A stretch of DNA of 64,000 nucleotides, taken from positions 620,001 to 684,000 of the forward strand of contig NZ_JAGFWR010000001.1 of assembly GCF_017599305.1 (NCBI RefSeq). Direction: 5' to 3'. A model generated the notes under the pieces. The model worked only from the letters and a program-made list of their open reading frames with translations, was not told the origin of the DNA and made no database searches. The stretch comes from Micromonospora antibiotica. Lineage in GTDB: Bacteria > Actinomycetota > Actinomycetes > Mycobacteriales > Micromonosporaceae. Positions within the stretch are counted from its first letter, which is position 1. Each line of letters begins with the position of its first letter. Positions 3,063-58,237 of this stretch are shown here, piece after piece. The position numbers were made by a program, and so were the translations under genes.

Positions 3063-4502
3063 GTGGTGGGGGATCGGTTGCAACCGGTGCTGGCCGGCGT
3101 GGTGACCGCCGTGGTCGGCTTCGCCAGCTCGTTCACCGTCGTGCTGGCCGGGCTGCGGGCGGTCGGCGCCAGCGAAGCGCAGGCCGCCTCCGGGCTGCTC
3201 ACGGTGAGCGTCGCCGCCGGGATCTGCGCGACCTGGCTCGGCCTGCGGCACCGGATGCCGATCGCCATCGCCTGGTCCACGCCGGGCGCGGCGCTGCTGG
3301 TCGCCACCGGGCCGGTCCCCGGCGGCTGGCCCGCCGCCGTGGGCGCGTTCGCGCTGTGCGGGCTACTCATCGTCGCCGCCGGCCTCTTCCCTGCCCTCGG
3401 CCGTGCGGTGGCCGCGATCCCCGCCCCGGTGGCGGCCGCGATGCTGGCCGGGGTGCTGCTGCCGCTGTGCACCGCCCCGGTACGCGCGCTGGTCGAGGTG
3501 CCGGCCCTGGCCGCCCCGGTGATCGTCACCTGGCTGGTGCTGCACCGGTTCGCCCCCCGGTGGGCGGTGCCGGCCGCGCTGGTGGCGGCGGCGTTGGCGA
3601 TCGCCCTGACCACGACCGGCGTGGGAGTCACCCCCGGTGACCTGCGGCCGGTGGTGTCGCCGACCGTGCCGACGTTCACCCTGCCCGCCGTGTTCGGCCT
3701 GGCGCTGCCGCTGTTCCTGGTCACCATGGCCGCGCAGAACGTGCCCGGCACGGCGGTGCTACGCGGCTTCGGCTACCGGCCGCCGCTCGCCCCGGCGCTG
3801 CGCGCCACCGGGCTGGCCAGTGCGCTCGGTGCCGCCACCGGCGGACACGCCGTCAATCTCGCCGCGATCACCGCCGCCCTCGCCGCCGGCCCCGACGCCC
3901 ACCCCGATCCGGATCGGCGCTGGATCGCCTCGGTGACCGCCGGCATCGGCCTGGCGCTGCTCGGGCTCGGCGCCGGCGCGGCGACCACGCTGGTGCTGCT
4001 CTCCCCGCCCGTGCTCATCGAGGCGGTCGCCGGGCTCGCGCTGCTCGGCGCGTTGGCCGGTGCCCTCACCGCGGCCCTGACCGCGCCCCCCGCGCCCCCG
4101 TCTCCCCCCGCGCCCCGGTCTCCTGCCACGCCCCTCGTTCCCGCCACGCTCCCGTCTCCTGCCACGCCCTCCGCTTCCGCCACGCCCTCCGCTTCCGCCA
4201 CGCCCTCCGCTTCCGCTGTACCCCTCGTTCCCGCGACCTCCGTCCCGGCGTCCACCGCTCTGCCGGCACCCGCGACCCCCGTCCTGCCGGCACCGGTGTC
4301 CACCGCTCTGCCGGAGCCGGCGACCGCCACTGCGTCGGCGGTCGTTTCCGATCCCCGGAGCCGGGAGGCCGCCGTGGTCACCTTCGTGGTCACCGCCTCG
4401 GGGGTGAGCCTGCTCGGCGTGGGCGGGGCGTTCTGGGGACTGCTCGCCGGCTGGCTGATGCTGCTGCTCTTCCGTCGCCGCAGGCCCGTCCCTGCCACCT
4501 GA
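3063..4502 (+). CDS. benE: BenE-family benzoate/H+ symporter
   Basis: A multi-pass membrane protein beginning VVGDRLQPVLAGVVTAVVGF and containing the BenE hallmarks SSFTVVLAGLRAVGAS, MPIAIAWSTPGAALL and NVPGTAVLRGFGY. BenE proteins import benzoate or related aromatic acids with protons. GTG at 3063 is chosen because GAGGGAGG sits 2-5 nt upstream and the family N-terminus begins here; an in-frame ATG at 2988 would add 25 atypical residues and lacks a ribosome site. At 479 residues it exceeds the usual 390-400 because of an Ala/Ser/Pro/Thr-rich insert (about residues 340-432) that contains three 18-bp DNA repeats (4161-4214) before the last membrane segment. Confidence 0.85.
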   Translation: MVGDRLQPVLAGVVTAVVGFASSFTVVLAGLRAVGASEAQAASGLLTVSVAAGICATWLGLRHRMPIAIAWSTPGAALLVATGPVPGGWPAAVGAFALCGLLIVAAGLFPALGRAVAAIPAPVAAAMLAGVLLPLCTAPVRALVEVPALAAPVIVTWLVLHRFAPRWAVPAALVAAALAIALTTTGVGVTPGDLRPVVSPTVPTFTLPAVFGLALPLFLVTMAAQNVPGTAVLRGFGYRPPLAPALRATGLASALGAATGGHAVNLAAITAALAAGPDAHPDPDRRWIASVTAGIGLALLGLGAGAATTLVLLSPPVLIEAVAGLALLGALAGALTAALTAPPAPPSPPAPRSPATPLVPATLPSPATPSASATPSASATPSASAVPLVPATSVPASTALPAPATPVLPAPVSTALPEPATATASAVVSDPRSREAAVVTFVVTASGVSLLGVGGAFWGLLAGWLMLLLFRRRRPVPAT

Positions 4503-4515
4503 CGGGCCTGCGGCG
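4476..4515 (+). terminator. Hairpin spanning benE stop codon
   Basis: A perfect 15-bp inverted repeat (4476-4490 with 4501-4515) with a 10-nt loop covers the TGA of benE. It has no T-tract, as is common for terminators in very GC-rich actinomycetes. Confidence 0.6.
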
Positions 4516-5145
4516 ACCGGTCCGACCGCCCCACCGCCGCGCCCCCACCCGGGATGGCGGGACGCGACGCGGTTCCGCCGCCCTCCCGGCACCTGCTCCC
4601 GCGTCAGGAGGGCGTCGCACCGAACCTTCTCGGCCACCGTTCAGCGAGGGGGAACTACGTCTGCGCGTCCTTTCGAGCTGACGGCGTCAACGACTCATCT
4701 GCATGCCTGCTGGCTGCCGGCTCGCCCGCTCGCCACCTGGCTGCCCGTTCACCGGCTCGCCACCTGGCTGCCCGCTCACCCGTTCGCCGGCTCACCACCT
4801 GGCCCATCCGTTCACCCGTTCACCCGTTCGCCCGTTCACCCGGGCGACCGGTCCCGGCTTCGCTGCGGTGCCGTGCCTCAGGCCGGTGATTCGTTGACGC
4901 CGTCAGATCGAAAGGGAGCGCAACAGGTACTGGTGCCCCGGTGGCATCGCTGTCGAGGTGCAGCTTCGAGTACCCGCCTCGACCGGGCTCCCACCGCCAC
5001 CGGGCTCCCACCGCCACCGACGCCCGGCGGGACCGCTGTCGAGGTGGGGGGCTCGCGCACCGGAGCGGATGCCGCCGGCGCGTCGGTGCCACGGCGACCG
5101 GCCGGGCCGCCGTCGGCGTCGCCTGGCGGGTATGGGGCGGGTGGG
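4503..5145. other. 643-bp intergenic region with repeats
   Basis: No convincing gene is present: the open frames here are GC-driven and lack family features. The region holds an inverted repeat pair at 4669/4887, tandem repeats between them, and Pro/Arg-rich pseudo-frames near 4950-5145. It lies between convergent genes (benE and the 5146 gene). Confidence 0.6.
4669..4915. repeat. 29-bp inverted repeats flanking tandem repeats
   Basis: The 29-bp segment 4669-4697 recurs inverted at 4887-4915 with three mismatches; the shared core is CTTTCGA then CTGACGGCGTCAACGA. Between them lie two copies of a 27-bp unit (CGCCACCTGGCTGCCCG, 4731 and 4758) and four copies of the octamer CGTTCACC (4809-4840). 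The layout resembles a small non-autonomous element or an intergenic repeat family; no transposase frame and no clear target-site duplication were seen. Confidence 0.55.
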
Positions 5146-5520
5146 TCACTCCTCCGGAGGCAGCTCACCCACGGGGACGTGCAGGCGTACCTGGTCGTCG
5201 GTGACCGTGGCGATCTGGTCGGCCAGCACGTACACCGCGCCGGTGCGGGCCAGTTCGGTGGAGACCTTGAGATAGCCGGTGCGCAGCAGGCGGGCCGCCA
5301 GGTCGGCCGGGACGTCCGGCTCCTCGACGGCTGCCGACTCGATCAGCTCGTTCAGACTGCCGCCCGGGTCGGCGGTCGACGCCTGCACGGTCACCGCGTT
5401 GGGATCGCCCCGCTGGACGAGGTCGACGGTGCCGATCTCGACCCCGACGGTGTCGACCACCCGCATGCCGGTGGTGACCCGGGAGATGACCGCCCGCTCT
5501 GCCATGCCCTGCTGCTCCAT
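5146..5520 (-). CDS. Conserved hypothetical protein, PRC-barrel-like
   Basis: A 124-residue (or 119 if it starts at the ATG at 5505) acidic soluble protein. The start MRVVDTVGVEIGTVDLVQRG resembles the beta-rich opening of PRC-barrel or DUF2171 proteins, followed by a helical part and VYVLADQIATVTDDQVRLHV. No signal peptide or membrane segment. It is downstream of the 82-residue gene, 52 bp apart, same strand, so likely co-transcribed. Function is not known; the fold similarity is a judgement by eye. Confidence 0.65.
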   Translation of the reverse strand: MEQQGMAERAVISRVTTGMRVVDTVGVEIGTVDLVQRGDPNAVTVQASTADPGGSLNELIESAAVEEPDVPADLAARLLRTGYLKVSTELARTGAVYVLADQIATVTDDQVRLHVPVGELPPEE

Positions 5521-5572
5521 CACCGCCCGGTTCCCTGCGCCGCCCGCCGCTAAACCGCCGGACGTCCCGCCG

Positions 5573-5821
5573 CTAGACCGCTGGGCCCCAGGCGCCGGGC
5601 GGACGCGGGGACAGCTCCCGCCAGGCGTCCGTGCCCTCCAGCAGGGCCCGGACGGTCTCCTCGGCCTCGTCGGCACTGCCGTGCTCGTAGAACTGGGAGA
5701 CGCCCTCCGCGCCGCCGGCCCGCTGCTCGACGTGCCACCGGTCGGCGTCGACCCGGAGGAACACGTCCCGCCGGGCCAGTCGTCCCCATTTGCCGTTCCA
5801 CCAGTGCCTACGCTGCTCCAT
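5573..5821 (-). CDS. Small conserved hypothetical protein (82 aa)
   Basis: An 82-residue protein rich in aromatic and charged residues (MEQRRHWWNGKWGRLARRDV, then DADRWHVEQRAGG). It has no recognisable domain but reads like a real small cytosolic protein, with normal codon bias and third-position GC. The ATG at 5821 follows a TAGAGT hexamer (5828-5833) by 6 nt, suggesting a leaderless transcript, and a LexA-like box lies directly upstream. It probably forms an operon with the 5146 gene. Confidence 0.65.
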   Translation of the reverse strand: MEQRRHWWNGKWGRLARRDVFLRVDADRWHVEQRAGGAEGVSQFYEHGSADEAEETVRALLEGTDAWRELSPRPPGAWGPAV

Positions 5822-5833
5822 GGCCGGACTCTA

Positions 5834-5849
5834 TCGAACATGTGTACGA
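5834..5849. promoter_or_regulatory. LexA/SOS-box-like palindrome
   Basis: TCGAACATGTGTACGA differs at one base from the actinobacterial SOS consensus TCGAAC-N4-GTTCGA. It lies immediately upstream of the -10-like TAGAGT of the 82-residue gene. The same 14-nt core (GAACATGTGTACGA) recurs at 21989-22002 upstream of another gene. Binding by LexA is inference. Confidence 0.4.
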
Positions 5850-5885
5850 AAAAAGTCGGCCCCCGCGGGAATTCCGCAGGGGCCG
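5849..5885 (-). terminator. Intrinsic terminator of mscL
   Basis: Read on the minus strand this is a GC-rich stem (CGGCCCCTGCGG paired with CCGCGGGGGCCG around AATT) followed by TTTTTT. It starts 15 bp after the mscL stop and is one of the few classical T-tailed terminators in the window. Confidence 0.8.
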
Positions 5886-5900
5886 ATGTGCACCGGTCGG

Positions 5901-6371
5901 TCAGCGCGGGGCGGGCGGCTCCGTCCGGCGTCCGAGCACGTCGTCGAGCGCGCCGCGCTGCCCCGGAGCGGTGTGGCCGCCGGCCAGCAGCGCGTCGCGG
6001 ATCTCGGTGAGCAGCTTGACCTCCTCACTGGGGGCGGCGGGCGGCGGCTCCTCGCCCCGCTTGCGCCGCTCGGCGAGCCGGTTCATCGGGTAGACGACCA
6101 GGAAGTAGAGCGCCGCCGCGGTCAGCGCGAAGGTGATCGCCGCGTTGACGAAGGCGATCCAGTCGAACGGGATGCCGCGGAACTCCGGCGTCGAGCCCTT
6201 GAGGCCGTCCTTCTTGCCGGTGATCAGCACGATGATGACCCGGACCAGTGGTTCGAGGAACGACTTGGTCAGCTGGGTGACCACGCCCGTGAACGCGGCA
6301 CCGATGACGACACCGACCGCCAGGTCGACGACGTTGCCACGCATGATGAAGTCTTTGAAGCCCTTGAGCAT
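5901..6371 (-). CDS. mscL: Large-conductance mechanosensitive channel MscL
   Basis: A 156-residue MscL homologue. MLKGFKDFIMRGNVVDLAVG is the amphipathic N-terminus and first membrane helix, with the gate region VVIGAAFTGVV; the second helix is FVNAAITFALTAAALYFLVV. The charged RRKRGEE cluster follows, then a C-terminal helix EEVKLLTEIRDALL. MscL opens under membrane tension to release solutes on osmotic downshock. ATG at 6371 is preferred over an upstream GTG because AGGAG lies 8 nt ahead of it. The tail is longer than in E. coli. Its own T-tailed terminator follows. Confidence 0.95.
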   Translation of the reverse strand: MLKGFKDFIMRGNVVDLAVGVVIGAAFTGVVTQLTKSFLEPLVRVIIVLITGKKDGLKGSTPEFRGIPFDWIAFVNAAITFALTAAALYFLVVYPMNRLAERRKRGEEPPPAAPSEEVKLLTEIRDALLAGGHTAPGQRGALDDVLGRRTEPPAPR

Positions 6372-6413
6372 CTGCTGCACTCCTGTGCCGTCCGATTCTC
6401 CGTCGGGGACAAC

Positions 6414-7097
6414 CTATGCCCCGGTCGGCGGCTCCAGAAAAGCACCGGCCTCGATCGCCGCCCGCCCGGGGTCGCCGTCCCGGATGGCCGCCACCAGTCG
6501 GCCGTGGTCGACGTACCGCTGGGGTTGCAGGGTGTCACCGATCGCGTGCGCGACGGTGCTGCGCAGGGCCGCGCCGACCGAGGCGTACAGCTCGGCCAGC
6601 ATGGCGTTGTGGGCGGCGGCGACCACCGCCGTGTGCAGGGCGACGTCCGCCTCCACGAACTCGGCGACCCGGCCCGACCGCCAGGCGGCCTCCCGGGTGG
6701 CGAGCGCGCCGTCGAGCGCCACCAGATCCTCCGGGGTACGCCGCAGCGCGGCCAACCGGGCCGCCTCGACCTCGAACGCCCGGCGGACCTCGACCACCTC
6801 GGCCATCCGGTCGTCGGTGAGCCGGCGGGCCACCACCGGGGCCAGCTCGTCGGTCGACACCACGTACGTCCCGGAGCCCTGCCGGCACTCCAGCACCCCG
6901 GCGTGCACCAGTGCCCGGACGGCCTCGCGGACGGTGTTGCGCCCCACCCCGAGCGCCGTCACCAGTTGCGGCTCGGTGGGGATGCGTCCACCGACCGGCC
7001 ATTCGCCGCCGAGGATCCGGCCCCGGAGCTGCTCGATCGTCTGGTGCACCCGCTGACCGCGCGGGGGCACGGGTGGGGAATCGACGGACGGTGTCAC
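6414..7097 (-). CDS. FadR-type GntR-family regulator
   Basis: A 227-residue protein with an N-terminal winged helix (GGRIPTEPQLVTALGVGRNT, VREAVRALVHAGVLECRQGS) and a C-terminal all-helical FCD domain with the expected metal/ligand pocket (EADVALHTAVVAAAHN, YVDHGRLVAAIRDGD). FCD regulators respond to organic acids or related metabolites. It is divergent from a CynX-type transporter; a GGT-TAC-ACC element sits between its TACAAT -10 and its start, suggesting autorepression and control of the exporter. Confidence 0.88.
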   Translation of the reverse strand: MTPSVDSPPVPPRGQRVHQTIEQLRGRILGGEWPVGGRIPTEPQLVTALGVGRNTVREAVRALVHAGVLECRQGSGTYVVSTDELAPVVARRLTDDRMAEVVEVRRAFEVEAARLAALRRTPEDLVALDGALATREAAWRSGRVAEFVEADVALHTAVVAAAHNAMLAELYASVGAALRSTVAHAIGDTLQPQRYVDHGRLVAAIRDGDPGRAAIEAGAFLEPPTGA

Positions 7098-7139
7098 CGG
7101 TTACACCAACTGCCGAAATTCATCCCATGATTGTAGGTT
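7098..7139. promoter_or_regulatory. Divergent promoter region with FadR-type operator
   Basis: GGTTACACCA (7099-7108) fits the GntR/FadR consensus TGGTNNNACCA at all but the first base. On the minus strand TACAAT (7130-7135) is a good -10 for the regulator; on the plus strand TAGGTT (7134-7139) lies 7 nt before the transporter ATG, so that mRNA would be leaderless. The two promoters overlap. Confidence 0.5.
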
Positions 7140-7146
7140 CGAGGTC

Positions 7147-8412
7147 ATGACCCCGCCAACCGCACCCGCCGTCGAGGCGCCGATCGAACCGCCCGCCCAC
7201 CGGCCGGCACACCGCGCCCCGTCGCCGGCCACCGGCGGCGCGCTGGTGCTGGTCGGGATGCTGCTGGTCGCGCTCAACCTGCGGGCCGCGGTGACCAGCC
7301 TCGGCGCGCTGCTCGACGAGGTACGCACCGGGCTCGGTCTCTCCGGCACGATGGCCGGGTTCGTCACCACCCTGCCCACCATCGCCTTCGCCGGTCTCGG
7401 CGCGCTCACCCCGTGGCTGATCCGCCGCTGGCCCGCAGCCCGGGTGCTGGTGGTGGCGATGCTCGCCCTCACCGTCGGTCAGGTGCTCCGGGTGGTCACC
7501 GACTCGGCGGCGATCTTCGTGCTCACCAGCGCGCTCGCCCTGGCCGGCATCGCAGTGGCGAACATCCTGCTGCCGATGCTGGTCAAGCAGCACTTCCCAC
7601 ACCGCACGGGGCTGGTCACCGGGGCGTACACGATGGCCCTGACGGCGGGTACGACGGTGGCCGCCGCCTCCGCCGTGCCGGTGGCGCACGCCTTCGGCTC
7701 CTGGCGGGCCGGGCTGGGCGTGTGGGCGGCGTTGGCGGCGGTGGCCGTACTCCCGTGGGTGCCGCTGGCGTTGCGGGCGCGCGCCGCCCGACGGACCGCG
7801 CCCCCGACGGCGGGCCCGGCCGTCCGCACCCGGGTCCAGCCGGCCCGCACCCGGCTCGGCTGGGCGATGGCGGTCTACTTCGGCGCGCAGTCACTGAGCG
7901 GGTACGCGGTGATGGGCTGGCTGGCCCAGCTCTTCCGGGACGCCGGCTTCCGACCGGAGAGCGCCGGACTGCTGCTCGCCGGGGTCACCGCGCTCGGGGT
8001 GCCGGTCGCCCTGCTGATGCCGACGCTGGCCGGCCGGCTCCGGACGCTGCGCCCGCTGGTGTTCGGGCTGACCGCGTTCTCCGCGGCGGCCTACCTGGGG
8101 TTGGCGCTCGCACCCCGGGACGGGGCGCTGCTGTGGGTGCTGCTGCTCGCCTTCGGTCAGGGCGCGTTCCCGCTGATCCTGACCACCATCGGCCTGCGGG
8201 CCCGCACCGCCGACGGCACGGTGGCGCTGTCCGCCTTCGCGCAGAGCACCGGATACGTGATCGCCGCGCTCGGGCCGCTGCTCGTCGGGGTGCTCTACGA
8301 GGCGACCGGTGGGTGGACCGCGCCGATGGGATTCCTGCTCGCCGCGCTGGCGGTGCAGACGACCGCGGGCATGGTGATCGCTCGTCCCCGGTTCATCGAG
8401 GACGAGCGGTGA
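7147..8412 (+). CDS. MFS transporter, CynX/NimT family
   Basis: A 421-residue, 12-helix major facilitator. The segments LVGMLLVALNLRAAVTSLGA, GLGLSGTMAGFVTTLPTIAF and ANILLPMLVKQHFPHRTGLV are characteristic of the CynX (cyanate) / NimT (2-nitroimidazole) group, which move small anions or drugs. About 35 Pro/Ala-rich residues precede the first helix. Transcription is likely leaderless (TAGGTT 7 nt ahead of ATG) and controlled by the divergent FadR-type regulator. It ends 9 bp before the convergent STAS gene. Substrate unknown. Confidence 0.85.
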   Translation: MTPPTAPAVEAPIEPPAHRPAHRAPSPATGGALVLVGMLLVALNLRAAVTSLGALLDEVRTGLGLSGTMAGFVTTLPTIAFAGLGALTPWLIRRWPAARVLVVAMLALTVGQVLRVVTDSAAIFVLTSALALAGIAVANILLPMLVKQHFPHRTGLVTGAYTMALTAGTTVAAASAVPVAHAFGSWRAGLGVWAALAAVAVLPWVPLALRARAARRTAPPTAGPAVRTRVQPARTRLGWAMAVYFGAQSLSGYAVMGWLAQLFRDAGFRPESAGLLLAGVTALGVPVALLMPTLAGRLRTLRPLVFGLTAFSAAAYLGLALAPRDGALLWVLLLAFGQGAFPLILTTIGLRARTADGTVALSAFAQSTGYVIAALGPLLVGVLYEATGGWTAPMGFLLAALAVQTTAGMVIARPRFIEDER

Positions 8413-8421
8413 GGAAACCGG

Positions 8422-8778
8422 TCAGGACGAGGCGGGGGTGGGATCGCCCGCGACGGCCTCATCGACAGTCGGGTAGGTGTGCAGCACCTCGACCAGCCCA
8501 CTGACCTCGAGGATGCGCAGCACGCCGCGCTGCGGGGCGGCCAACCGGACCACGCCGCCGGCCTCGTCGCAGCTGTTCTTGGCCCGGACGAAGACCGACA
8601 ACCCGGTCGAGTCGCAGAACGACACCTCGGCCAGGTCGAACACCAGCCGGCTGCGCCCCTTGTCGAGCAGGTCGGTGATCTGGTCCTGCAACTGCGGTGC
8701 GGTCGCCATGTCGAGTTCGCCCGCGACCGACACGACGACGACGTCGCCGCGCTGTTCCGTGTGCACCGTCAGGGACAT
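8422..8778 (-). CDS. STAS-domain anti-sigma factor antagonist
   Basis: A 118-residue single STAS domain of the RsbV/SpoIIAA type. VVSVAGELDMATAPQLQDQI and VSFCDSTGLSVFVRAKN are the diagnostic segments, the serine in DSTGLS being the usual phosphorylation site. Such proteins release a sigma factor by binding its anti-sigma kinase when dephosphorylated. AGGAGGT lies ahead of the ATG. It is divergent from the rsbR operon, which encodes a matching kinase and phosphatases, so it may be one of their targets. Confidence 0.9.
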   Translation of the reverse strand: MSLTVHTEQRGDVVVVSVAGELDMATAPQLQDQITDLLDKGRSRLVFDLAEVSFCDSTGLSVFVRAKNSCDEAGGVVRLAAPQRGVLRILEVSGLVEVLHTYPTVDEAVAGDPTPASS

Positions 8779-8936
8779 TCAGACCTCCTGTTATTGGTGG
8801 AACGGTATCCCACGAACAGCGGGACACGCAGAACGGGAGCGCTTCCGGTGGGACCGATCATTCCTTTGCTGCGGGGCAACTACCGGGTCTGCCTCCGGTG
8901 ATAGAGTCCGGCCGGCCCAGCTCACAGGAGGTAACC

Positions 8937-9797
8937 ATGGCGTTGACCGCAGACGGAGGCGACCGACTCGTCGAGCTACTGACCGGGCACGGCGAGCGGG
9001 TGGTGCAGCGGTGGACCGAGGTCGTCGCCACCTCGCTGCGCGGTCGGCTCAGCCAGGCCGAGCTACGCCTCCAGGTGCAGGAGCTGCACGCTAGCATGAT
9101 CAATGCCGGCGGTGCCGGCCTGGCCGACCTCCAGGCGCCCTCGGCGGGCGAGCTGCGGGCGGTGCTCGCCGACCTGTCCCGCAGCCGGGCCCGGCAGAGC
9201 TTCACCGCCACCGAGACCGCGACCAGCATCTACGCCCTCAAGGACGTCCTGGTCGAGCTGGCCGAGACCGACGGCGTCGAGCTGTCGCTGCGGGACGTCC
9301 TGGACTTCACCGGCCTGGTCGACCGGATGGGGCTGCTCACCTTCGAGACCTACGTGCAGACCCGCGAGGGGCTGATCGCCGACCAGGCCGAGCAGCTGCT
9401 CGAACTCTCCACCCCGGTGGTGAAGATCTGGGACGGTGTGGTCGCCGTGCCGCTGGTCGGCACCCTCGACTCGGCCCGCGCCCAGGTGGTGATGGAACGA
9501 CTGCTCCAGACCCTGGTCGACACCGGCTCGCCGTACGCCATCATCGACATCACCGGCGTGCCGGCGGTCGACACCCAGGTCGCCCAGCACATCCTCAAGA
9601 CGGTGGTGGCCGCCCGGCTGATGGGCGCCGACTGCATCATCTCCGGCATCCGCCCGCAGATCGCGCAGACCATCGTCGCGCTCGGCATCGAGTTCGGCGA
9701 CATCGCCACCAAGGCGAGCCTGGCCGACGCGCTGCGGCACGTGCTGCGCCTCACCGGGGTGGAGGCGTCCCGCCGCCACCCGCGTCGGGAGGCGTGA
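8937..9797 (+). CDS. rsbR: RsbR-type stressosome co-antagonist
   Basis: A 286-residue protein: a helical globin-like RsbR N-domain (about 1-155) followed by a STAS domain (about 160-275). In the STAS part, VDTQVAQHILKTVVAARLMG and ISGIRPQIAQTIVALGIEFG keep the two threonines that RsbT phosphorylates in Bacillus subtilis RsbR. It would form the sensory turrets of the stressosome. The ATG at 8937 has AGGAGGT 4-5 nt upstream. First gene of a six-gene operon; TGATG overlap with rsbS. Confidence 0.92.
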   Translation: MALTADGGDRLVELLTGHGERVVQRWTEVVATSLRGRLSQAELRLQVQELHASMINAGGAGLADLQAPSAGELRAVLADLSRSRARQSFTATETATSIYALKDVLVELAETDGVELSLRDVLDFTGLVDRMGLLTFETYVQTREGLIADQAEQLLELSTPVVKIWDGVVAVPLVGTLDSARAQVVMERLLQTLVDTGSPYAIIDITGVPAVDTQVAQHILKTVVAARLMGADCIISGIRPQIAQTIVALGIEFGDIATKASLADALRHVLRLTGVEASRRHPRREA

Positions 9798-10213
9798 TGG
9801 AACGGGTGCCGATCCTCAAGATCGGCGACATCCTGCTGGTCTCCATCCAGATCGACATGTCCGACCAGACGGCGGTCACCCTCCAGGAGGACCTGGCCGA
9901 GCGGATCGTCGCGACCGGCTGCCACGGCGTCATCATCGACATCACCGCGCTGGACATCGTCGACTCCTTCGTCGGCCGGATGCTCTCCACCATCGCCTCG
10001 ATCTCCAAGGTGCTCGACGCCGAGACGGTGGTCGTCGGGATGCGTCCCGCGGTCGCCATCACCCTGGTCGAGCTGGGCCTGTCGCTCAACGGCATCCGCA
10101 CCGCGCTGAACGTGGAGCGGGGCATGGAGCTGATCGCGGCGACCCGCGACGACGACCTCGGGTACGACGACCCCGAGGACGTGGAGTCCGGGACGGCGGC
10201 GACATCGTCATGA
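9797..10213 (+). CDS. rsbS: RsbS-type stressosome scaffold STAS protein
   Basis: A 138-residue STAS-only protein (VPILKIGDILLVSIQIDMSD, then ITALDIVDSFVGRMLSTIAS). The serine in DIVDSFVGRML corresponds to the phosphorylated serine of RsbS, which together with RsbR forms the stressosome core and holds RsbT. ATG 9797 overlaps the rsbR stop; GGGAGG precedes it. An acidic tail (DDDLGYDDPEDVES) extends beyond the STAS fold and is unusual. ATGA overlap with rsbT. Confidence 0.92.
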   Translation: MERVPILKIGDILLVSIQIDMSDQTAVTLQEDLAERIVATGCHGVIIDITALDIVDSFVGRMLSTIASISKVLDAETVVVGMRPAVAITLVELGLSLNGIRTALNVERGMELIAATRDDDLGYDDPEDVESGTAATSS

Positions 10214-10626
10214 CCGCGGGAGTCGACCTGGGCCCGAAGACCCAGGCGATCGGCAGTGACGAGGACGTCGTCCGGGTCCGTCAGCTGGTGCGTACCGTGG
10301 CGGTGGCGGTCAAGCTCTCCCTCGTCGACCAGACGAAGCTGGTGACCGCCGCGAGTGAGCTGGCCCGCAACACCCTCATCTACGGCGGTGGCGGCACCGC
10401 CGAGGTGACGGTCGTCGAGGACGGCCGGCGGCGCGGGGTGCGGATCGTCTTCGCCGACTCCGGGCCGGGCATCGTCGACCTGGGTCTCGCCCTCACCGAC
10501 GGCTACACCACCGGCGGTGGCCTGGGCCTCGGCCTCAGCGGCTCCCGTCGACTGGTCGACGACTTCGACATCCAGACCGCCCCCGGCGAGGGCACCCGGA
10601 TCACCATTACCAAGTGGTCCCGATGA
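10210..10626 (+). CDS. rsbT: RsbT-type serine/threonine switch kinase
   Basis: A 138-residue GHKL ATPase/kinase. The N box region is ASELARNTLIYGGGG, the G1 box ADSGPGIVDL and the G2 box GGGLGLGLSGSRRL. RsbT phosphorylates RsbS and RsbR, then leaves the stressosome to activate a downstream phosphatase. Here the likely partners are the phosphatase encoded two or three genes on. It overlaps both neighbours by 4 bp (ATGA), implying translational coupling. Confidence 0.92.
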   Translation: MTAGVDLGPKTQAIGSDEDVVRVRQLVRTVAVAVKLSLVDQTKLVTAASELARNTLIYGGGGTAEVTVVEDGRRRGVRIVFADSGPGIVDLGLALTDGYTTGGGLGLGLSGSRRLVDDFDIQTAPGEGTRITITKWSR

Positions 10627-11639
10627 TCCACGACATGGTGCCGGACGCGGGCCACTGGTACCGGGTGGAGAGCGGCAGCGCCGCCAGCACCGTACGACGC
10701 GCGGCGGAACGCCTCGGCGGGCAGCTCGGCCTCGGTGAGAACCGGGTCGCCGAACTGGCCATCGTCGCCGCCGAGCTGACCAGCAACCTGGTGAAGCACG
10801 CCCAGGAGGGTGTCCTGCTGCTGCGCCCGGTGCGCACCGGCGACGCCGCCGGGGTGGAGTTGATCGCGGTCGACTCCGGCCCCGGGATGGCCGACCTGAC
10901 CGTCTCCTCCCGCGACGGCCACTCCACCACCGGCACCCTGGGCATCGGCCTCGGTGCCATCACCCGGCAGGCCAGCTGGTACGACGCCTGGTCCCGGCCG
11001 GGGCGGGGCACCGTCTTCGCGGTGCAGGTGTGGGCGAAGGAGGTGCGGGCCACGCCGGCCTGGGCGGCGGGGCTGACCCGGCCGATCACCGGCGAGCAGG
11101 TCAGCGGCGACAGCCACGCGATGCGTACCGAACAGGGGCGGCACCAGGTGCTGGTCTGCGACGGGCTGGGCCACGGGCCGTTGGCCAACGTGGCCGCCGA
11201 GGCGGCCGTCTCCGCCTTCCGGGTCGCGCCGGCCGGTCCGCCAGCCACCGTGGTGACGCACCTGCACCGTGCGATGTCGCACACCCGGGGGGCCGCGTTG
11301 GCGGTGGCGGAGCTGGACCCGGCGGCGGGTCTGCTGCGCTACGCCGGGCTGGGCAACATCGCCGGGACGGTGCTGGCCCCGGACGGCACCCGGCGGGGGC
11401 TGGTGTCGCTGCCCGGCATCGCCGGCCACCAACGTCCGACGGTGCGTGAGTACGACTACCCGTTCCCGGCCGGCGCGACCCTGGTGATGCAGAGCGACGG
11501 GGTGGTGGACCGGTGGCGGTCCGAGGACTATCCGGGGCTGACCGGGCGGGCGTCGGTGGTCGTCGCGGCGACCCTGCTGCGCGACGCCGGAATCCGCCGG
11601 GACGACGCCTGCGTGCTGGTCGCGAGAACTCCGTCGTGA
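10623..11639 (+). CDS. Fusion of GHKL ATPase domain and RsbX-type phosphatase
   Basis: A 338-residue protein with two parts. Residues about 1-140 are an RsbW/RsbT-like ATP-binding domain (VAAELTSNLVKHAQEGVLLL, AVDSGPGMADL, TLGIGLGAITRQAS). Residues about 145-338 are a PP2C/SpoIIE-type phosphatase similar to RsbX (VCDGLGHGPLANVAAEAAV, QSDGVVDRW, RDDACVLVAR). RsbX resets the stressosome by dephosphorylating RsbS/RsbR; the fused ATPase would allow kinase and phosphatase roles in one chain. Translation is coupled to rsbT and to the next gene (ATGA and GTGA). Confidence 0.88.
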   Translation: MIHDMVPDAGHWYRVESGSAASTVRRAAERLGGQLGLGENRVAELAIVAAELTSNLVKHAQEGVLLLRPVRTGDAAGVELIAVDSGPGMADLTVSSRDGHSTTGTLGIGLGAITRQASWYDAWSRPGRGTVFAVQVWAKEVRATPAWAAGLTRPITGEQVSGDSHAMRTEQGRHQVLVCDGLGHGPLANVAAEAAVSAFRVAPAGPPATVVTHLHRAMSHTRGAALAVAELDPAAGLLRYAGLGNIAGTVLAPDGTRRGLVSLPGIAGHQRPTVREYDYPFPAGATLVMQSDGVVDRWRSEDYPGLTGRASVVVAATLLRDAGIRRDDACVLVARTPS

Positions 11640-12988
11640 CCGCCCGCGAGCCACTCCTGCGGATGGCGTTGCGGGTGGAACAGGACATCTTCGGGGTACG
11701 CCAGCGGGGCCGGGAGGTCGCGGCGGCGATCGGGCTGGAGCACCAGGACCAGGTGCGGTTCGCCACCGCGCTCAGCGAGGTGGCCCGGGACCTGCTGCGT
11801 ACCGTGGCCGGCGCGGACGTCAGCTTCGCCCTCGTCACGGAGCCGGACGGGCGGCGGTTCCTCAGCGTCGACCTCGCCCCGTTGCGTCCGCTGCCGGGCA
11901 ACCGGTACGAGCCGCAGTCCGGCGCGGTGGCGCGATTGGTGGACACCCTGGGGCTGGCGGAGGCCGCGGGATATACGGTCGTGAGGATGTCCCGACGTGT
12001 CCCGGCCGCCGCTGCGGCGCTGACCCCGCCGCGCCTGGCCGAGCTGCGCGCCGAGCTGGGCACCAGCGCCCCGGCCAGCGCCCTGGACGAGTTGGCCACC
12101 CAGAACGGGCAGCTCATCGCCGCTCTCGACGAGGTACGCAGCCAGCGCGACGAGTTGGCCGTGCTGAACGCCGAGCTGGAGGAGACCAACCGGGGCGTGA
12201 TGGCGCTCTACACCCAGCTCTCCGAGGAGCTGGAGGCGACCAACCGGGGCGTGGTGGCGCTCTACGCCGAGCTGGACGAGAAGTCGGCCCAGCTGCGCGC
12301 GGCGAGCGAGTCGAAGAGTCGCTTCCTGGCCAACGTCAGCCACGAACTGCGGGCCCCGGTGACCGCGATCATCGGGCTGGGGCGGCTGCTGACCGACTCC
12401 GCGTCGGACCCGCTCACCGCCGAGCAGGCCCAGCAGGTCGAGCTGATCCGGTCCTCGGCAGCCGACCTGCTCTCCCTGGTCAACGACCTGCTCGACCTGG
12501 CCAAGGCGGAGGCTGGCCGGATCGAGCCGGAGTGGGTGCAGGTCGACCTGCGGGCGGTCTTCGGGCAGCTGCGGGGGACACTGCGGGCGCTCACCCTGCG
12601 TTCCGAGGTGGAGCTGGCGGTGGAGGAGCCGCCCCCGGGCACCGAGCTCCGCTCGGACGAGGTGCTGCTGGCCCAGGTGCTGCGCAACCTGCTGCACAAC
12701 GCGGTGAAGTTCACCGACCGGGGTGAGGTGCGGATGTGCGCCGAGCGGGTCGACGACCGGGTCCGGATCCGCGTCTCGGACACCGGGCCGGGCATCCCCG
12801 CCGAGCTGCACGAACGGATTTTCGAGGAGTTCTACCAGGTGCCGGGGACCAGCCGGCGCAGCGGCACCGGTCTCGGTCTGCCGTACGCGCGGCGGTTGGT
12901 GACGCTGCTCGGCGGCACCCTGACGTTGGCCAGCGAACCGGGTCGGGGCAGCAGCTTCACGGTGGACCTGCCCGTGGCGGGGGTGTGA
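11636..12988 (+). CDS. Cytosolic sensor histidine kinase
   Basis: A 450-residue kinase without membrane segments. Residues about 1-130 form an RsbT/ATPase-like N-domain of uncertain function, followed by a coiled coil (about 155-225) that contains a repeated LEETNRGVMALYTQLSEE / LEATNRGVVALYAEL unit. The HisKA motif FLANVSHELRAPVTAI places the phospho-acceptor at His236; HATPase boxes are NLLHNAVKF, DTGPGIP and GTGLGLPYARRL. GTG 11636 overlaps the stop of the preceding gene. It presumably signals to the next gene's receiver, joining the stressosome to a two-component path. Confidence 0.88.
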   Translation: MTAREPLLRMALRVEQDIFGVRQRGREVAAAIGLEHQDQVRFATALSEVARDLLRTVAGADVSFALVTEPDGRRFLSVDLAPLRPLPGNRYEPQSGAVARLVDTLGLAEAAGYTVVRMSRRVPAAAAALTPPRLAELRAELGTSAPASALDELATQNGQLIAALDEVRSQRDELAVLNAELEETNRGVMALYTQLSEELEATNRGVVALYAELDEKSAQLRAASESKSRFLANVSHELRAPVTAIIGLGRLLTDSASDPLTAEQAQQVELIRSSAADLLSLVNDLLDLAKAEAGRIEPEWVQVDLRAVFGQLRGTLRALTLRSEVELAVEEPPPGTELRSDEVLLAQVLRNLLHNAVKFTDRGEVRMCAERVDDRVRIRVSDTGPGIPAELHERIFEEFYQVPGTSRRSGTGLGLPYARRLVTLLGGTLTLASEPGRGSSFTVDLPVAGV

Positions 12989-12989
12989 G

Positions 12990-14528
12990 GTGGCCGGCGT
13001 CCCGGCGACGATCCTGGTGGTCGACGACAGCCCCACCAAGCGCTATCTGCTGGTGAGCTGGCTGACCCGGGCCGGTTTCACGGTCTGGGAGGCGGAGAAC
13101 GGCACCGAGGCGCTGGCCCGGGTCGGGGTGGACCCGATCGACCTGGTGGTGCTCGATGTCCGGCTGCCGGACCTGAGCGGCTTCGAGGTCTGCGAACGGA
13201 TCAAGGCGGACCACCCGGCCATTCCGGTGATCCACGTGTCCGCGCACGCGGTCGACGTGGTGGACCGTACCCAGGGACTGACCCGGGGTGCGGACGCCTA
13301 CCTGGCCGAGCCGATCGAGCCGGAGGAGCTGGTTGCCACCGCGCATGCGGTGCTGCGCTACTACCAGGCGCGGCAACGGGCCGAGTTGCTCGCCGAGCGG
13401 CTCACCGGGTTGGCCGACACCACCGTGGCGGTGCACGCCGCGCCGACCTTCGCCCGCCTGTTGCAGGAGGCGGCGGCCGGCGCGGCGCAGATCTTCCGCA
13501 GCCCGGCGGTGGTGGTCGCGGAGACCTTCGACGGGGATTGCCTGGCCGGGGTCGCCGCCGGTCCGGGCGCGACGGCGGAGGTCGTACCGTGGGTGGTCGA
13601 CGACACCGGCGTGCCGACCGGGGCGACCGTGCGGGTGGACGCCCCCGACGGGTGGGGGTTGGTGCGCTGGCCGGACGGTGACACGGTGACCGTGGCCGCC
13701 GCCAAGCTGCGGGAGGACCGCGCCCCGCTGTACGTGGTGGTGCCCACCGCCACCCAGACCGCCCGGACCCCGGTGCTGGTGCAGCTCGCCCAGGCGGTCG
13801 CCTCGGCGGTGGAGGCACAGCGCTCCTACGACGAGGAACACCGGATCGCGGTGACCCTCCAGCGGAGCCTGCTGCCCCGACGGCTGCCCGACGTGGCCGG
13901 CCTCGACCTGGCGGTGCGTTACGAGCCGGCCAGCGCGCAGACCGAGGTGGGCGGGGACTTCTACGAGCTGGTGATGCTCGACGGGCACCTTTTGGTGGCG
14001 ATCGGCGACGTCGCCGGTCACTCGCTGCACGCGGCGACGGTGATGGCCGAGCTGCGGCACGCGATGCGGGCGTACGCGGTGGAGGGGCATCAGCCCGGGG
14101 TGATCCTGGAACGGCTCAACGTGCTGATGCGTACGCTGCTGCGCAACGAACTGGCGACCCTGTGCATCCTGCTGCTGCACCCGTCGACGGGCCGGATCAG
14201 ACTGGCCAGCGCCGGGCACCTGCCGGCGCTGGTGACGGTGGACGGCCGGGTGGAGTACGTGCAGCAGTCGGCCCCGCTGCTGGGGGTGCGCGCGGACCGG
14301 CCGGAGGATCTGGAGTTCACCCTGCCGGCGGGCGCGACGCTGGTGCTCTACACCGACGGGCTGATCGAACGGCGGGACACCACCATCGACGACGGTCTGG
14401 CCGCGTTGGCCGCCTGCGCGACGGTGGTCGACGACGACCTGGACGGCTTCTGCCAGCGGCTGCTGGTCGAGCTGGCCCCGCCGGAGATCCACGACGACGT
14501 CGCGGTGGTGGCGGTCCGCCGCCGCTGA
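12990..14528 (+). CDS. Receiver-GAF-SpoIIE phosphatase
   Basis: A 512-residue protein: receiver domain (1-125, acceptor Asp56 in VVLDVRLPD), a GAF-like linker (about 150-285) and a SpoIIE/RsbU-type PP2C phosphatase (about 300-512; EVGGDFYELVML, GDVAGHSLHAATVM, DDVAVVAVRR). RsbU-type enzymes dephosphorylate STAS antagonists and so free a sigma factor. The receiver lacks the conserved lysine: where K-P is expected it reads AEP, with Glu107. GTG 12990 follows the kinase stop by 1 bp. It is the output of the operon; the 8422 STAS protein is a plausible substrate. Confidence 0.9.
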   Translation: MAGVPATILVVDDSPTKRYLLVSWLTRAGFTVWEAENGTEALARVGVDPIDLVVLDVRLPDLSGFEVCERIKADHPAIPVIHVSAHAVDVVDRTQGLTRGADAYLAEPIEPEELVATAHAVLRYYQARQRAELLAERLTGLADTTVAVHAAPTFARLLQEAAAGAAQIFRSPAVVVAETFDGDCLAGVAAGPGATAEVVPWVVDDTGVPTGATVRVDAPDGWGLVRWPDGDTVTVAAAKLREDRAPLYVVVPTATQTARTPVLVQLAQAVASAVEAQRSYDEEHRIAVTLQRSLLPRRLPDVAGLDLAVRYEPASAQTEVGGDFYELVMLDGHLLVAIGDVAGHSLHAATVMAELRHAMRAYAVEGHQPGVILERLNVLMRTLLRNELATLCILLLHPSTGRIRLASAGHLPALVTVDGRVEYVQQSAPLLGVRADRPEDLEFTLPAGATLVLYTDGLIERRDTTIDDGLAALAACATVVDDDLDGFCQRLLVELAPPEIHDDVAVVAVRRR

Positions 14529-44774: not shown

Positions 44775-45335
44775 ATGTCCCGACCGACCTTCACCATCCA
44801 CACCCTCGACACCGCGCCCGACGCCGCCCGCCCGACCATGGCCGGCGTGCAGCGGAAGCTCGGCCACCTGCCCGGCGCGGTCGGCCTGCTGGCCGAATCC
44901 CCCGAACTGCTCAAGGGGTTCCTGACCGCCTCCGCCACCTTCGAGGCCACCGACCTCGCACCGGTCGAGCGGGAGGTGGTGGTGCTGACCGTCGCCACCC
45001 GCAACCGGTGCCACCTCTGCGTGGCGATGCACACCGCCACCCTGCACCGGCTGGGTGCCGCCGCTGACCTGATCGCCGCGCTGCGCGACGGCACCGAACT
45101 GCCCGAACCCCGGCTGGCGGCGCTGCGCCGGTTCACCCGCGCCGTCCTCGATCACGCCGGTGACGTGCCGGACGACGAGCTGACCGCCTTCCTCGACGCC
45201 GGCTACCGGCCCCGGCACGCCCTCGACGTGGTGCTCGGGGTCGGGACGTACACCATCTCGACCCTCGCCAACCGGCTCACCCGCGCCCCACTCGACCCGC
45301 CCCTGACCGCGTACGCCTGGGAGCCGGCGGCCTGA
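44775..45335 (+). CDS. AhpD-like carboxymuconolactone decarboxylase family protein
   Basis: A 186-residue all-helical protein of the CMD/AhpD superfamily. The redox motif CHLCVAMH has Cys79, Cys82 and His86, as in AhpD-type peroxidase-related proteins; PVEREVVVLTVATRNRC is the family core. It probably acts in hydroperoxide reduction or as an alkylhydroperoxidase-like enzyme in the cytosol. ATG 44775 has GAGGGG 7 nt upstream; an upstream GTG at 44760 is less likely. Paired with the divergent MarR gene. Confidence 0.87.
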   Translation: MSRPTFTIHTLDTAPDAARPTMAGVQRKLGHLPGAVGLLAESPELLKGFLTASATFEATDLAPVEREVVVLTVATRNRCHLCVAMHTATLHRLGAAADLIAALRDGTELPEPRLAALRRFTRAVLDHAGDVPDDELTAFLDAGYRPRHALDVVLGVGTYTISTLANRLTRAPLDPPLTAYAWEPAA

Positions 45336-45370
45336 CCGGCCGACTCCATCCGAGAATAGACATCCCCTTT

Positions 45371-45453
45371 CGATGGCACGAAACTAAAGGAAAGCTTTAG
45401 TTTCGTGCCATCGGTCGACCACAAACTAAAGTTTTCCTTTAGTTTGTTACCCT
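45371..45453. promoter_or_regulatory. Two palindromes and leaderless promoter of the abiE operon
   Basis: First palindrome: 19-bp perfect arms (45371-45389 and 45395-45413) with a 5-nt loop. Second: ACAAACTAAAG-TTTTC-CTTTAGTTTGT (45421-45447, 11-bp arms). Both share the half-site AAACTAAAG, giving four copies in 70 bp. TACCCT (45448-45453) ends 6 nt before the GTG at 45460. AbiEi antitoxins are known to bind paired inverted repeats and repress their own operon; the fit is strong, though binding here is inferred. Confidence 0.75.
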
Positions 45454-45459
45454 TGTCGG

Positions 45460-46056
45460 GTGGCACCATCCGGCCAGCGGACGAACCGGCGCGCGCTGTT
45501 CCAGCTCGCTGCTCGTCAACACGGCTACGTCACCGCCGCGCAGGCTCGGGACACTGGATACTCGTATCAGGCGCAGAAATACCACGTTGATCACGGCAAC
45601 TGGGTGCGGGTTGACCGAGGAGTCTTCCGGCTGGTGGATTGGCCGGCGCATCCGGCGGACCATCTCGTCCGTTGGGTGCTGTGGAGCGGAGCGGTGGGCG
45701 TGGTGAGTCATGCCAGCGCGCTCTCCGTACACGACCTTGGTGATCTCGACCCGGCCAGGGTGCATCTGTCGGTTCCCGCGCGGTTCCGACGCTCGGCCCC
45801 GGAGATCGTCCTGCACCGACCGCTTCCCCCCGAAGTGGACATCGAAGATCGAGAAGGGTTCCGGGTGACGACCCCGAGTCGCGCACTTGCCGAGTGCGCA
45901 CAGGCAAGGATCGAGCAACAGTGGCTCGACGGTGCTGTCGCCGAGGCGCTCAGCCGGGGCCTCATCACCCCACGGCGCCTGCGTGCCGCCGCCACGGAAC
46001 TGGGCCCGACGGCAGAGCTGGGTGCGCATACCGCGCTGCTGGCGGCAGGCCGATGA
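45460..46056 (+). CDS. abiEi: AbiEi-type antitoxin (type IV toxin-antitoxin)
   Basis: A 198-residue protein: N-terminal winged helix (ALFQLAARQHGYVTAAQARD, TGYSYQAQKYHVDHGNWVRV, RGVFRLVDWP) and a C-terminal AbiEi antitoxin domain (VVSHASALSVHDLGDLDPAR, TTPSRALAECAQARIEQQWL). In type IV AbiE systems it represses the operon and counters the nucleotidyltransferase toxin without binding it directly. GTG 45460 looks leaderless. ATGA overlap with the toxin gene. Moderately lower GC than the core genes. Confidence 0.87.
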   Translation: MAPSGQRTNRRALFQLAARQHGYVTAAQARDTGYSYQAQKYHVDHGNWVRVDRGVFRLVDWPAHPADHLVRWVLWSGAVGVVSHASALSVHDLGDLDPARVHLSVPARFRRSAPEIVLHRPLPPEVDIEDREGFRVTTPSRALAECAQARIEQQWLDGAVAEALSRGLITPRRLRAAATELGPTAELGAHTALLAAGR

Positions 46057-46946
46057 ACAGGAGATACTCGACGCCTTCCGCGCTCCGCGCTGCCCTCGAC
46101 AACCGCGTCCTCGAACGTGCGCGACTGCTCGGCAGAGACCCCAACTGGCTCCGTCGCCGCCTTGCCTTCACCCGGCTCCTGGTGCGACTCGTCCATCAGA
46201 ACACCGATGCCTGGGTGCTCAAGGGCGGTATGGCGGTCGAGCTGAGGCGGCCCGGGCTCGCACGATCGACCCGCGACGTCGACCTGGTGATAAGGCCGGG
46301 TCTGGTAGCAGATCCGGGCGACGGAACGGAACTCCACGAGGCGCTGGTCGAGGCACTGCTCACCGACCCCGATGGTGACGGGTTCAGCTACTCGGCCACC
46401 GCGCCGACTCGGCTACGCGACGACGCGTACGGCCGTCCGGCCTGGCGCTTCTCGGTCGAGAGTCGTCTTGCCGGCCAACTCTTCGCCAAACTCAAGCTGG
46501 ACGTGGTGGCGCGACCCGAGGAACTGGGCGGCGTCGAGCTGCGCGAACTGCCTGACGACCTGGCATTCGCCGCCATCCCCACCCGGGCGATCTGGGTAGC
46601 TGACCTGCGGCAGCAGTACGCCGAGAAGCTGCACGCCCTGACGCGGCTCTACGAGACCGGGCTGTCCACCCGGGTCAGGGACCTGGTCGACCTCGTCCTG
46701 CTGGTGGAGGACGGTGTGCCGGCTGATGAAACGCTGGTCAGGCGGGTGCACCACGTCTTCTCCATCCGAGGTACCCACACCGTGCCGGATGATCTCCCCG
46801 AACCACCGCCATCGTGGAACGTCAGGTACGAAGTCCTGGCAGCGGAGATCGGTCTCGTGGTGGCGTCTGCGATTGAGGCGCACAAGATTGTCTCCGGGCA
46901 CTGGTCGCAGGCTCGTGCCACAGGGAGCAGTGACACACCCGAATGA
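46053..46946 (+). CDS. abiEii: AbiEii-type nucleotidyltransferase toxin
   Basis: A 297-residue DUF1814/AbiEii nucleotidyltransferase. LKGGMAVELRRPGLARSTRD contains the polymerase-beta-like motif: Gly-Gly (58-59), then RSTRDVDL with Asp75 and Asp77 as metal ligands. KLKLDVVARPEEL and ADLRQQYAEKLHALTRLYET are later conserved parts. Such toxins modify tRNA or use GTP to stop growth during phage infection. Translationally coupled to the antitoxin. All motifs seem intact, so the system should be functional. Confidence 0.88.
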   Translation: MNRRYSTPSALRAALDNRVLERARLLGRDPNWLRRRLAFTRLLVRLVHQNTDAWVLKGGMAVELRRPGLARSTRDVDLVIRPGLVADPGDGTELHEALVEALLTDPDGDGFSYSATAPTRLRDDAYGRPAWRFSVESRLAGQLFAKLKLDVVARPEELGGVELRELPDDLAFAAIPTRAIWVADLRQQYAEKLHALTRLYETGLSTRVRDLVDLVLLVEDGVPADETLVRRVHHVFSIRGTHTVPDDLPEPPPSWNVRYEVLAAEIGLVVASAIEAHKIVSGHWSQARATGSSDTPE

Positions 46947-47018
46947 ACGGGAACACCCATGTTGGTCTGACCGAACTGAATCTCTAGTTCGCGCTGCTGG
47001 CCGACCAGAAACTGAAGC

Positions 47019-47288
47019 TCACCGACAGGCGCGGGCGGTCCAGCCGAGGAAGCGCTCGTACAGTGCTCCGGGTTTCGGGGTGTCGTCGGGGTGGAGCCGG
47101 TACAGGTCCTCGACGGCGGTGTACAGCATCCCGGCCAGGTAGATCGACAGGGCGACCCGGCTGTTCCGGTAGTCGGCCGTAAGGGTCAGCCGGGCGTTGG
47201 CGCAGGGCCACGGACCGCCGCAGGCCCGGCAGAGCCACAGCGGCCGGAGTGGGACGTGGAGCCGGGAGCGCTGAGCAGGGCTGGTCAT
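47019..47288 (-). CDS. Small cysteine-containing hypothetical protein
   Basis: An 89-residue protein with a possible metal site, LWLCRACGGPWPCANARLTL (three cysteines), followed by SRVALSIYLAGMLYTAVEDL and LGWTARACR. This short family is repeatedly found next to XRE/DUF397 pairs in Micromonosporaceae and other actinomycetes; here it is divergent from such a pair. Function unknown; a flavin- or zinc-binding role is only a guess. Confidence 0.7.
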   Translation of the reverse strand: MTSPAQRSRLHVPLRPLWLCRACGGPWPCANARLTLTADYRNSRVALSIYLAGMLYTAVEDLYRLHPDDTPKPGALYERFLGWTARACR

Positions 47289-47561
47289 CGGGTGCTCCTC
47301 ACCTCGCCTGTGGACCTGGGGTGGGTCGTGGCGTCGCCGACGTGCCGGCGCTCCCGGCGTGCGGGACGTCCGTCGCCGACGTGCCGGACGGCCCCGCCAC
47401 GGTTCCGCCCGTCCTTTCGGTCGGATCCGGGCGGTTCCGGGTGTGCACAGTCTGATCAGGACGGAATACGATCGGAAGGCGATCGGTCACCCTGTGTGTT
47501 CCCCGGCGGTGGCGGTGAGGTCGGTGAGGAACGCGGTCTGCGATGGTGAGGAGACGTGCGG

Positions 47562-52872: not shown

Positions 52873-53060
52873 CCCTGCCCCCTGCCCCTGCCCCTGCCCC
52901 TGCCCCTGCCCCCTCGCCCCGGTGATCAAGAGGTTTGCGTCAGGTGATCAAGAGGTTTGCGTCAACTTTGATCTTCAAGTTGACGCAAACCTCTTGATCA
53001 CCGGGGCGGGGCGGGCCGGGGCGGGCCGGGGCGGGGGTGGGCCGGGCCGGGGTGGGGTGG
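52873..53060. repeat. CCCCTG and GGGGC simple repeats flanking a palindrome
   Basis: Five CCCCTG hexamers (about 52873-52912) precede the palindromic element and GGGGCGGGCC-type repeats (53003-53060) follow it. Both are low-complexity, between convergent genes. Confidence 0.7.
52921..53002. repeat. 22-bp direct repeat plus 26-bp-arm palindrome
   Basis: GGTGATCAAGAGGTTTGCGT(CA) at 52921-52942 is repeated at 52943, where it starts a perfect palindrome: arms 52943-52968 and 52977-53002, loop TGATCTTC. The stem is long enough to be a bidirectional terminator for the convergent mqnP and terpene cyclase genes. Its AT-rich composition differs sharply from the flanks, so it may also be a mobile intergenic repeat. 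Confidence 0.75.
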
Positions 53061-58143: not shown

Positions 58144-58237
58144 GGTCCGGACGTTACGCCAGCCGGACGCAGCCGGCAGCGCATGCGCGAACGCCGCCCC
58201 GGAGCGCGGGCTCCGGGGCGGCGTCGGACAGCACGGA

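Follow-up and report, generated by a model that had tools for sequence, protein, structure and literature searches.

An AbiE-type operon in Micromonospora with a predicted AbiEi operator of two regularly spaced palindromes

A Micromonospora genome of 7.56 Mb carries an AbiEi/AbiEii gene pair in the stretch of DNA analysed here (64,000 nucleotides, referred to as the window). We consider it probable (about 0.82) that the pair is an intact AbiE operon, in which AbiEi represses its own transcription from two phased sites and restrains a MenT3-like AbiEii. This reading was computed from the anatomy of the sequence, the conservation of site, spacing and promoter position, the predicted folds and the catalytic residues; from these we infer binding, stoichiometry, cooperativity, repression, toxicity, the Thr73 mechanism and phage defence. 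Coordinates are collected in Table 1.

Table 1. Features of the abiE region of the window and of one related locus.
Feature	Position	Strand	Description
Distal palindrome (palindrome 1)	45371..45413	.	19-bp arms, 5-nt spacer, 100% complementary
Distal core 23-mer	45381-45403	.	half-sites 45381-45389 and 45395-45403
Proximal palindrome (palindrome 2)	45421..45447	.	11-bp arms, 5-nt spacer, 100% complementary
Proximal core 23-mer	45423-45445	.	half-sites 45423-45431 and 45437-45445
-10-like box TACCCT	45448..45453	+	first base 12 nt before GTG; leaderless transcript predicted
abiEi	45460..46056	+	antitoxin, predicted autorepressor, 198 aa, GTG start, winged HTH and C-terminal domain
abiEii	46053..46946	+	predicted DUF1814 nucleotidyltransferase toxin, 297 aa, ATG start
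Operator-like relic	46979..47017	+	3' of operon; CTCTAGTTC...AAACTGAAG, imperfect direct repeat of operator core
AbiE inside hsd operon	L070 (G126) 8206-13738		

The two genes were adjacent and co-directional, in the AbiE order of an AbiEi gene and a DUF1814 AbiEii gene, and overlapped by the ATGA at 46053-46056. AbiEi was matched by Pfam AbiEi_4 (1e-9) and PADLOC AbiEi (2e-69), and AbiEii by Pfam AbiEii (9e-29) and PADLOC AbiEii (3e-74), while a search of NCBIfam with both proteins gave no match. The first-pass annotation had described an intact pair, and this was borne out by homology, fold and full-length reading frames. The closest named relative was found in Micromonospora wenchangensis (L001), whose AbiEi is 94% identical. 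The neighbours in the window were marR, an ahpD-like gene lying directly upstream of abiE, a small gene and an HTH-DUF5753 gene, with no hsd gene adjoining.

The predicted structure of AbiEi (pLDDT 94.9) comprised an N-terminal winged helix-turn-helix and a C-terminal antitoxin domain, the fold of the AbiEi family. With Foldseek, its top match was the AbiEi of S. agalactiae (6y8q; E 1.1e-8, TM 0.66), and Rv2827c (1zel) was also matched (E 1.8e-5), identity being about 15% in both cases. Sequence searches of the PDB with AbiEi gave either nothing or one irrelevant match at E 0.56, so the structural kinship was visible by fold comparison alone.

AbiEii (predicted structure, pLDDT 90.5) matched MenT3/Rv1045 in Foldseek with E 8e-17, TM 0.80-0.82 and 25% identity, and its profile matched MenT3 (6y5u) at 1e-22. 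A profile match to AbiGII in the PDB (1.7e-6) was consistent with the family; weak matches to 14-3-3 and retinol-binding proteins (E 0.05-0.5) were ignored. The key residues were KGG at 57-59, T73, D75/D77, K192 and D210/D213, which supply AbiEii motifs I-IV (hGG, DxD, K and D), the aspartate of motif IV (D210 or D213) being assigned by position. Among 17 aligned full-length toxins, window included, G58, G59, R71, T73, D75, D77, K192, D210 and D213 were invariant and K57 nearly so; the active-site Asp75/Asp77 named at first pass are thus present as described. With its fold, T73, D75, D77 and K192, the protein also has the features of the MenT family, namely the DxD with a Ser/Thr two residues ahead of it, and the lysine. 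Thr73 lined up with Ser78, the phosphoacceptor of MenT3.

Upstream of abiEi, a palindrome scan recovered the two palindromes with 19- and 11-bp arms and the four shared half-sites that had been annotated. Both contain AAACTAAAG-N5-CTTTAGTTT, which gives four half-sites, all perfect in the window. The starts of the two 23-mers are 42 bp apart and the gap between them is 19 bp. The 19-bp arms exceeded chance, as arms grew to 13 bp at most in 20 first-order Markov versions of the window; 11-bp arms were reached in 12 of these 20 versions and are unremarkable alone. One palindrome in the window has longer arms than palindrome 1 (26 bp, at 52943-53002), and other long perfect inverted repeats lie at 4474-4517 (17-bp arms) and 58191-58224 (15-bp arms). 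When the 23-mer was searched in its own genome with up to 3 mismatches, solely the two operator sites were found, and an action of the operator elsewhere in this genome was therefore rejected.

Conservation was assessed in 29 loci, including the window, drawn from overlapping source sets: 8 from 160 genomes of the genus, 3 from genome_contigs, and at least 4 more from 250 genomes of the family, 6 from 298 of the order and 8 from 394 of the class. The wide family, order and class searches scored the best 8-12 candidates per genome, and their presence counts are lower bounds. Left out were L001 (apparently a duplicate of L008), the two loci that are the window itself (L005 and L006), the weaker matches L017-L036 from the genus, and matches without a locus. 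L004, whose AbiEi match is in two pieces, was counted among the 29 loci and omitted from the protein alignment, in which the remaining AbiEi (28 rows) were 43-93% identical to that of the window. In L057 and L058 the higher score fell on the distal site, and the nearer site was assigned as proximal by hand.

The proximal site matched at least 12 of the window's 18 specified positions in 27 of the 29 loci, window included. The lower scores were those of L062 (11) and L060 (9, a background level), and the L060 site was accepted by eye despite its score against the consensus. The best CTTTAGTTT upstream of the proximal site lay at -41 to -43 in 28 of 29 loci with ties counted and in 24 without. 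In 2000 single-base shuffles of the upstream DNA, with ties again counted, the number of such loci averaged 2.5 and never exceeded 9. Its mean match was 6.41/9 at -42, compared with a median of 1.9 and values of at most 3.76 outside -45 to -39. Among loci whose AbiEi share less than 70% pairwise identity, 15 of 16 kept this spacing; L002, which has no distal site, was the lone exception among the 29. The distal half-site was kept although the gene directly upstream of abiE differs, being an EcoEI-type hsdR in 17 loci, an ahpD-like gene in 4 (the window, L008, L010 and L011) and, in 8, a position where neither was found. This 29-locus footprint supports the operator proposed at first pass, as a prediction from sequence. 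The distal left half-site was weaker than the distal right (mean 4.38/9 vs 6.41), so four strong half-sites are not the norm. Judged by these matches, the design often has three half-sites, and the window shows its most complete form.

The motif was absent from 17 more distant AbiEi loci (32-38% identical), where the best score was 10/18. Other palindromes were observed near the start codon in such loci: CGTATCA-N3-TGATACG in L065 and L067, and a TGCGCACTAGCGTACC-type palindrome in L015, with an imperfect version in L016. These suggest that AbiEi clades may have operators of their own. In L060, ATCAAG replaces the CTAAAG half-site in the proximal palindrome and in the distal right half. Two residues set the L060 AbiEi apart from all others of the 28 aligned: the wing reads GAW instead of GNW, and GF stands in place of GY ahead of the recognition segment. 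This locus is a possible natural change of AbiEi specificity.

One explanation of the long arms of palindrome 1 is that they arose by template-switch correction of imperfect palindromes and have no function beyond the 23-bp core; we give it only slightly less than an even chance. Long arms were found in 3 of 29 loci and at either site, distal in the window (9 of 11 outer positions paired) and proximal in L039 and L045 (10 of 11), the next best locus pairing 6. Their sequences differ among the three loci, which favours such an origin, as does the M. wenchangensis ortholog, which keeps most of the left arm but not the right. Against it, three loci are few, and a GCACG next to the core recurs at the proximal site of L013, L014, L058 and L060 and at the distal site of the window and L008, which could mean extended contacts. 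In addition, outer-arm pairing compared with 5000 partner shuffles formally exceeded chance at the proximal site (p 0.014; distal, p 0.078) when L039 and L045 were included, and these two loci probably drive that excess. The long arms of palindrome 1 are a local feature and not a conserved hairpin.

In 28 of 29 loci, a TANNNT box began 11-13 nt upstream of the in-frame start codon. This places the start codon at or beside +1 and would give a leaderless transcript, in support of the leaderless promoter annotated earlier. In L002 and L061 the box is a TAGGAT within the right arm of the operator, where L062 has AAGGAT. Two candidate boxes were present in both L004 and L044, of which the nearer was counted, and for loci with several in-frame starts the one fitting the protein alignment was taken. 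A sigma-70 consensus scan of the region upstream of abiE found no promoter, and no -35 was therefore assigned. The distance from the end of the operator to the start codon ranged from 6 to 28 nt, while the distance from the -10 box to the start was fixed.

In the proposed autoregulation, AbiEi protomers, one per AAACTAAAG half-site, would bind as two pairs on the two 23-bp palindromes. As these are four helical turns (42 bp) apart, the AbiEi pairs would lie on the same face of the DNA and could touch. The proximal pair would cover the DNA just upstream of the leaderless -10 and block RNA polymerase. Autorepression through 23-bp repeats is described for the AbiEi proteins of S. agalactiae and M. 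tuberculosis (PMC3985639, PMC7319586). A pair of AbiEi per palindrome is our own extrapolation, since the AbiEi proteins studied are monomers that bind one 23-bp repeat each. AbiEi would also keep AbiEii inactive, most likely through self-phosphorylation of AbiEii on Thr73 beside the DxD; antitoxin-induced auto-phosphorylation is described for MenT toxins (PMC11375011). By the same analogy, AbiEii released from AbiEi would be expected to act as a tRNA nucleotidyltransferase and to arrest growth.

AbiEi might instead bind as independent monomers of graded affinity and without positive cooperativity, as in Rv2827c, with the 42-bp spacing having another cause. The characterised actinobacterial relative has four repeats and is described as negatively cooperative (PMC7319586), which lends this account some weight. 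We nonetheless regard it as fairly unlikely, as the promoter slides by up to 22 nt relative to the operator while the spacing between sites stays at 41-43 bp, and as the spacings of Rv2827c (23-bp repeats with 13- and 4-bp gaps) differ from those of the window. We take the sliding of the promoter, while the two-site spacing holds, as the best clue that what is conserved is contact between AbiEi molecules on the DNA. The same source describes AbiEi binding in S. agalactiae as positively cooperative (PMC7319586), and non-cooperative binding had been suggested earlier (PMC3985639).

In 16 of the 29 loci an hsdM gene lay downstream of abiE, placing AbiE between the hsdR and hsdM genes of a type I restriction operon. 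The gene order hsdR-abiEi-abiEii-hsdM-hsdS was seen in L078 (G929, 4141-10795). In L013, L014, L040 and L056, hsdM starts 1 nt after the abiEii stop; elsewhere it starts nearby or overlaps, with a less certain start. The upstream hsdR calls included a Pfam run on 3 of the hsdR pieces, and L037 has a short hsdR match alone, apparently a remnant. When 296 genomes of the class were searched for HsdR at E 1e-60 or better, with the best 3 candidates scored in each, at least six were found; of these, 4 had AbiE after hsdR and 2 had hsdR next to hsdM. In the six Micromonospora genomes with solo AbiE or relics, EcoEI-type HsdR gave a distant partial match in 3 and none in the other 3. AbiEi was open in 28 of 29 loci, and AbiEii was interrupted, short or not found in 10, including 5 of the 16 embedded in hsd operons; in some loci the interruptions may be sequencing errors.

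These arrangements raise the unlikely reading that this AbiE clade primarily guards type I restriction in actinobacteria. AbiEi autorepression at the hsdR-hsdM cassette would then also set the expression of hsdM and hsdS, and loss or inhibition of the restriction operon would free a toxin that modifies tRNA, making it PrrC's independent counterpart. On this view, the copy that the window carries in Micromonospora would have escaped to a solo position behind ahpD, and direct repeats derived from the operator would allow both its gain and its loss there by recombination.

The first-pass annotation had further suggested that palindrome 1 forms an RNA hairpin or serves as a terminator. If this were its main role, palindrome 1 would insulate abiE from read-through of the ahpD-like gene and the half-sites would be incidental. 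The predicted hairpin is very stable (-33.2 kcal/mol, z -9.8). AbiE-less marR-ahpD-small gene-HTH regions were found at L099 (G132), L112 (G143) and L115 (G088). In G132 and G143 a G+C-rich hairpin (about -33 kcal/mol) lies between ahpD and the next gene, where G088 has a different stretch. G127 and G100 carry the AbiE genes between ahpD and such a hairpin. The window lacks this hairpin, and its long palindrome could therefore act as a strain-specific insulator. However, the M. wenchangensis ortholog behind the same gene forms no hairpin (-5.1, z +0.67), and no T-tract or terminator-like site was found in 45300-45520, so that palindrome 1 is not an intrinsic terminator with a G+C-rich stem and a T-tract. 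The distal outer arms pair little above the partner-shuffled level (p 0.08). At the proximal site, comparably long arms were seen in L039 and in L045, where they run into the -10 box, and loci that have no long arms still conserve the distal right half-site. A conserved hairpin or terminator is thus unsupported and was rejected as a general function, and an RNA element as the main role of palindrome 1 is improbable.

Operator-like relics were also found. The one 3' of the operon had a local score of 17, against a maximum of 15 in 2000 shuffles, and 15 of 18 half-site matches, the best of the 29 loci (next, 13). It shares a junction with the AbiE-less locus of G059 (L083), in which one operator lies between the window's own neighbours without AbiE; G059 is either an excision product or an earlier relic. 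In G156 an operator accompanies the C-terminal 100 residues of AbiEii. No close AbiEi was found in G156 or G059. The small gene at 46990-47330, beside the HTH-DUF5753 gene, is common across Micromonospora, with DNA matches of E 1e-10 or better in 149 of 160 genus genomes, often several in each.

A search of the 160 Micromonospora genomes with the bipartite pattern, allowing up to 3 mismatches, gave matches in 11: four AbiE genomes (0-2 mismatches), two relics (1-2 mismatches) and five places with 3 mismatches, which were taken as background. All matches with 0-2 mismatches (6 genomes) were AbiE loci or relics. The pattern missed 4 of the 8 genus AbiE loci (G070, G095, G126 and G147). Since the reversed-pattern control gave 18 matches in 17 genomes, only matches with 0-2 mismatches are informative, and the pattern was rejected as proof by counting, there being no enrichment (11 of 160 genomes vs 17). 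That the window pair is itself a decayed, non-functional remnant, as the defective AbiEii of other loci and the relics without a working pair in G059 and G156 might suggest, is very improbable given that both of its frames are full length and its catalytic residues and operator are intact.

The intact, autoregulated operon that we favour resembles the AbiE system of S. agalactiae, a type IV toxin-antitoxin system, in gene order, AbiEi fold (6y8q), AbiEii family and a palindromic operator over the promoter. The S. agalactiae operator is described as a pair of 23-bp inverted repeats lying 3 bp apart, TGTTGCTTTTA-N27-TAAAAGCAACA (PMC3985639). In contrast, the 23-mers of the window are each palindromic, separated by 19 bp at a conserved offset of 41-43 bp, different in sequence and followed by a predicted leaderless start, and the window AbiEi is 15% identical to 6y8q. 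Rv2827c/Rv2826c of M. tuberculosis shares the actinobacterial AbiEi fold (1zel) and several 23-bp repeats over the promoter. However, its antitoxin is longer (a 293-residue chain vs 198 in the window), and its operator is described as two pairs of 23-bp repeats, with a 13-bp gap within and 4 bp between pairs (PMC7319586), where the window has two 23-mers and a 19-bp gap. In titles, abstract openings and best matches of the literature searched, we found no AbiE operator of this form and no AbiE in an hsd locus. By comparison of sequences, the kind of AbiE operon is known, and what is new is a clade-specific variant of the operator, of which that literature gave no description.

AbiEii resembles MenT3 (Rv1045) in predicted fold, profile match, the alignment of Thr73 with Ser78, the DxD and the lysine, at 25% identity. 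The AbiE clade gains a testable operator code: its half-site is defined, its spacing stays close to four turns, and L060 offers a natural variant. The two AbiE operators studied disagree on cooperativity. The linkage to restriction is the most interesting by-product. PrrC (EcoprrI) is described as a translation-blocking toxin inside a type I hsd locus (PMC12707154, PMC2610378), the position that AbiE occupies in 16 of 29 loci, although the window AbiE has no hsd gene beside it. PrrC is a protein unrelated to AbiEii, and it is the restriction enzyme, not a paired antitoxin, that is described as silencing it. With the restriction-embedded relatives, the question can be put whether type I restriction has a guard in a MenT3-like toxin, as it has in PrrC in E. 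coli.
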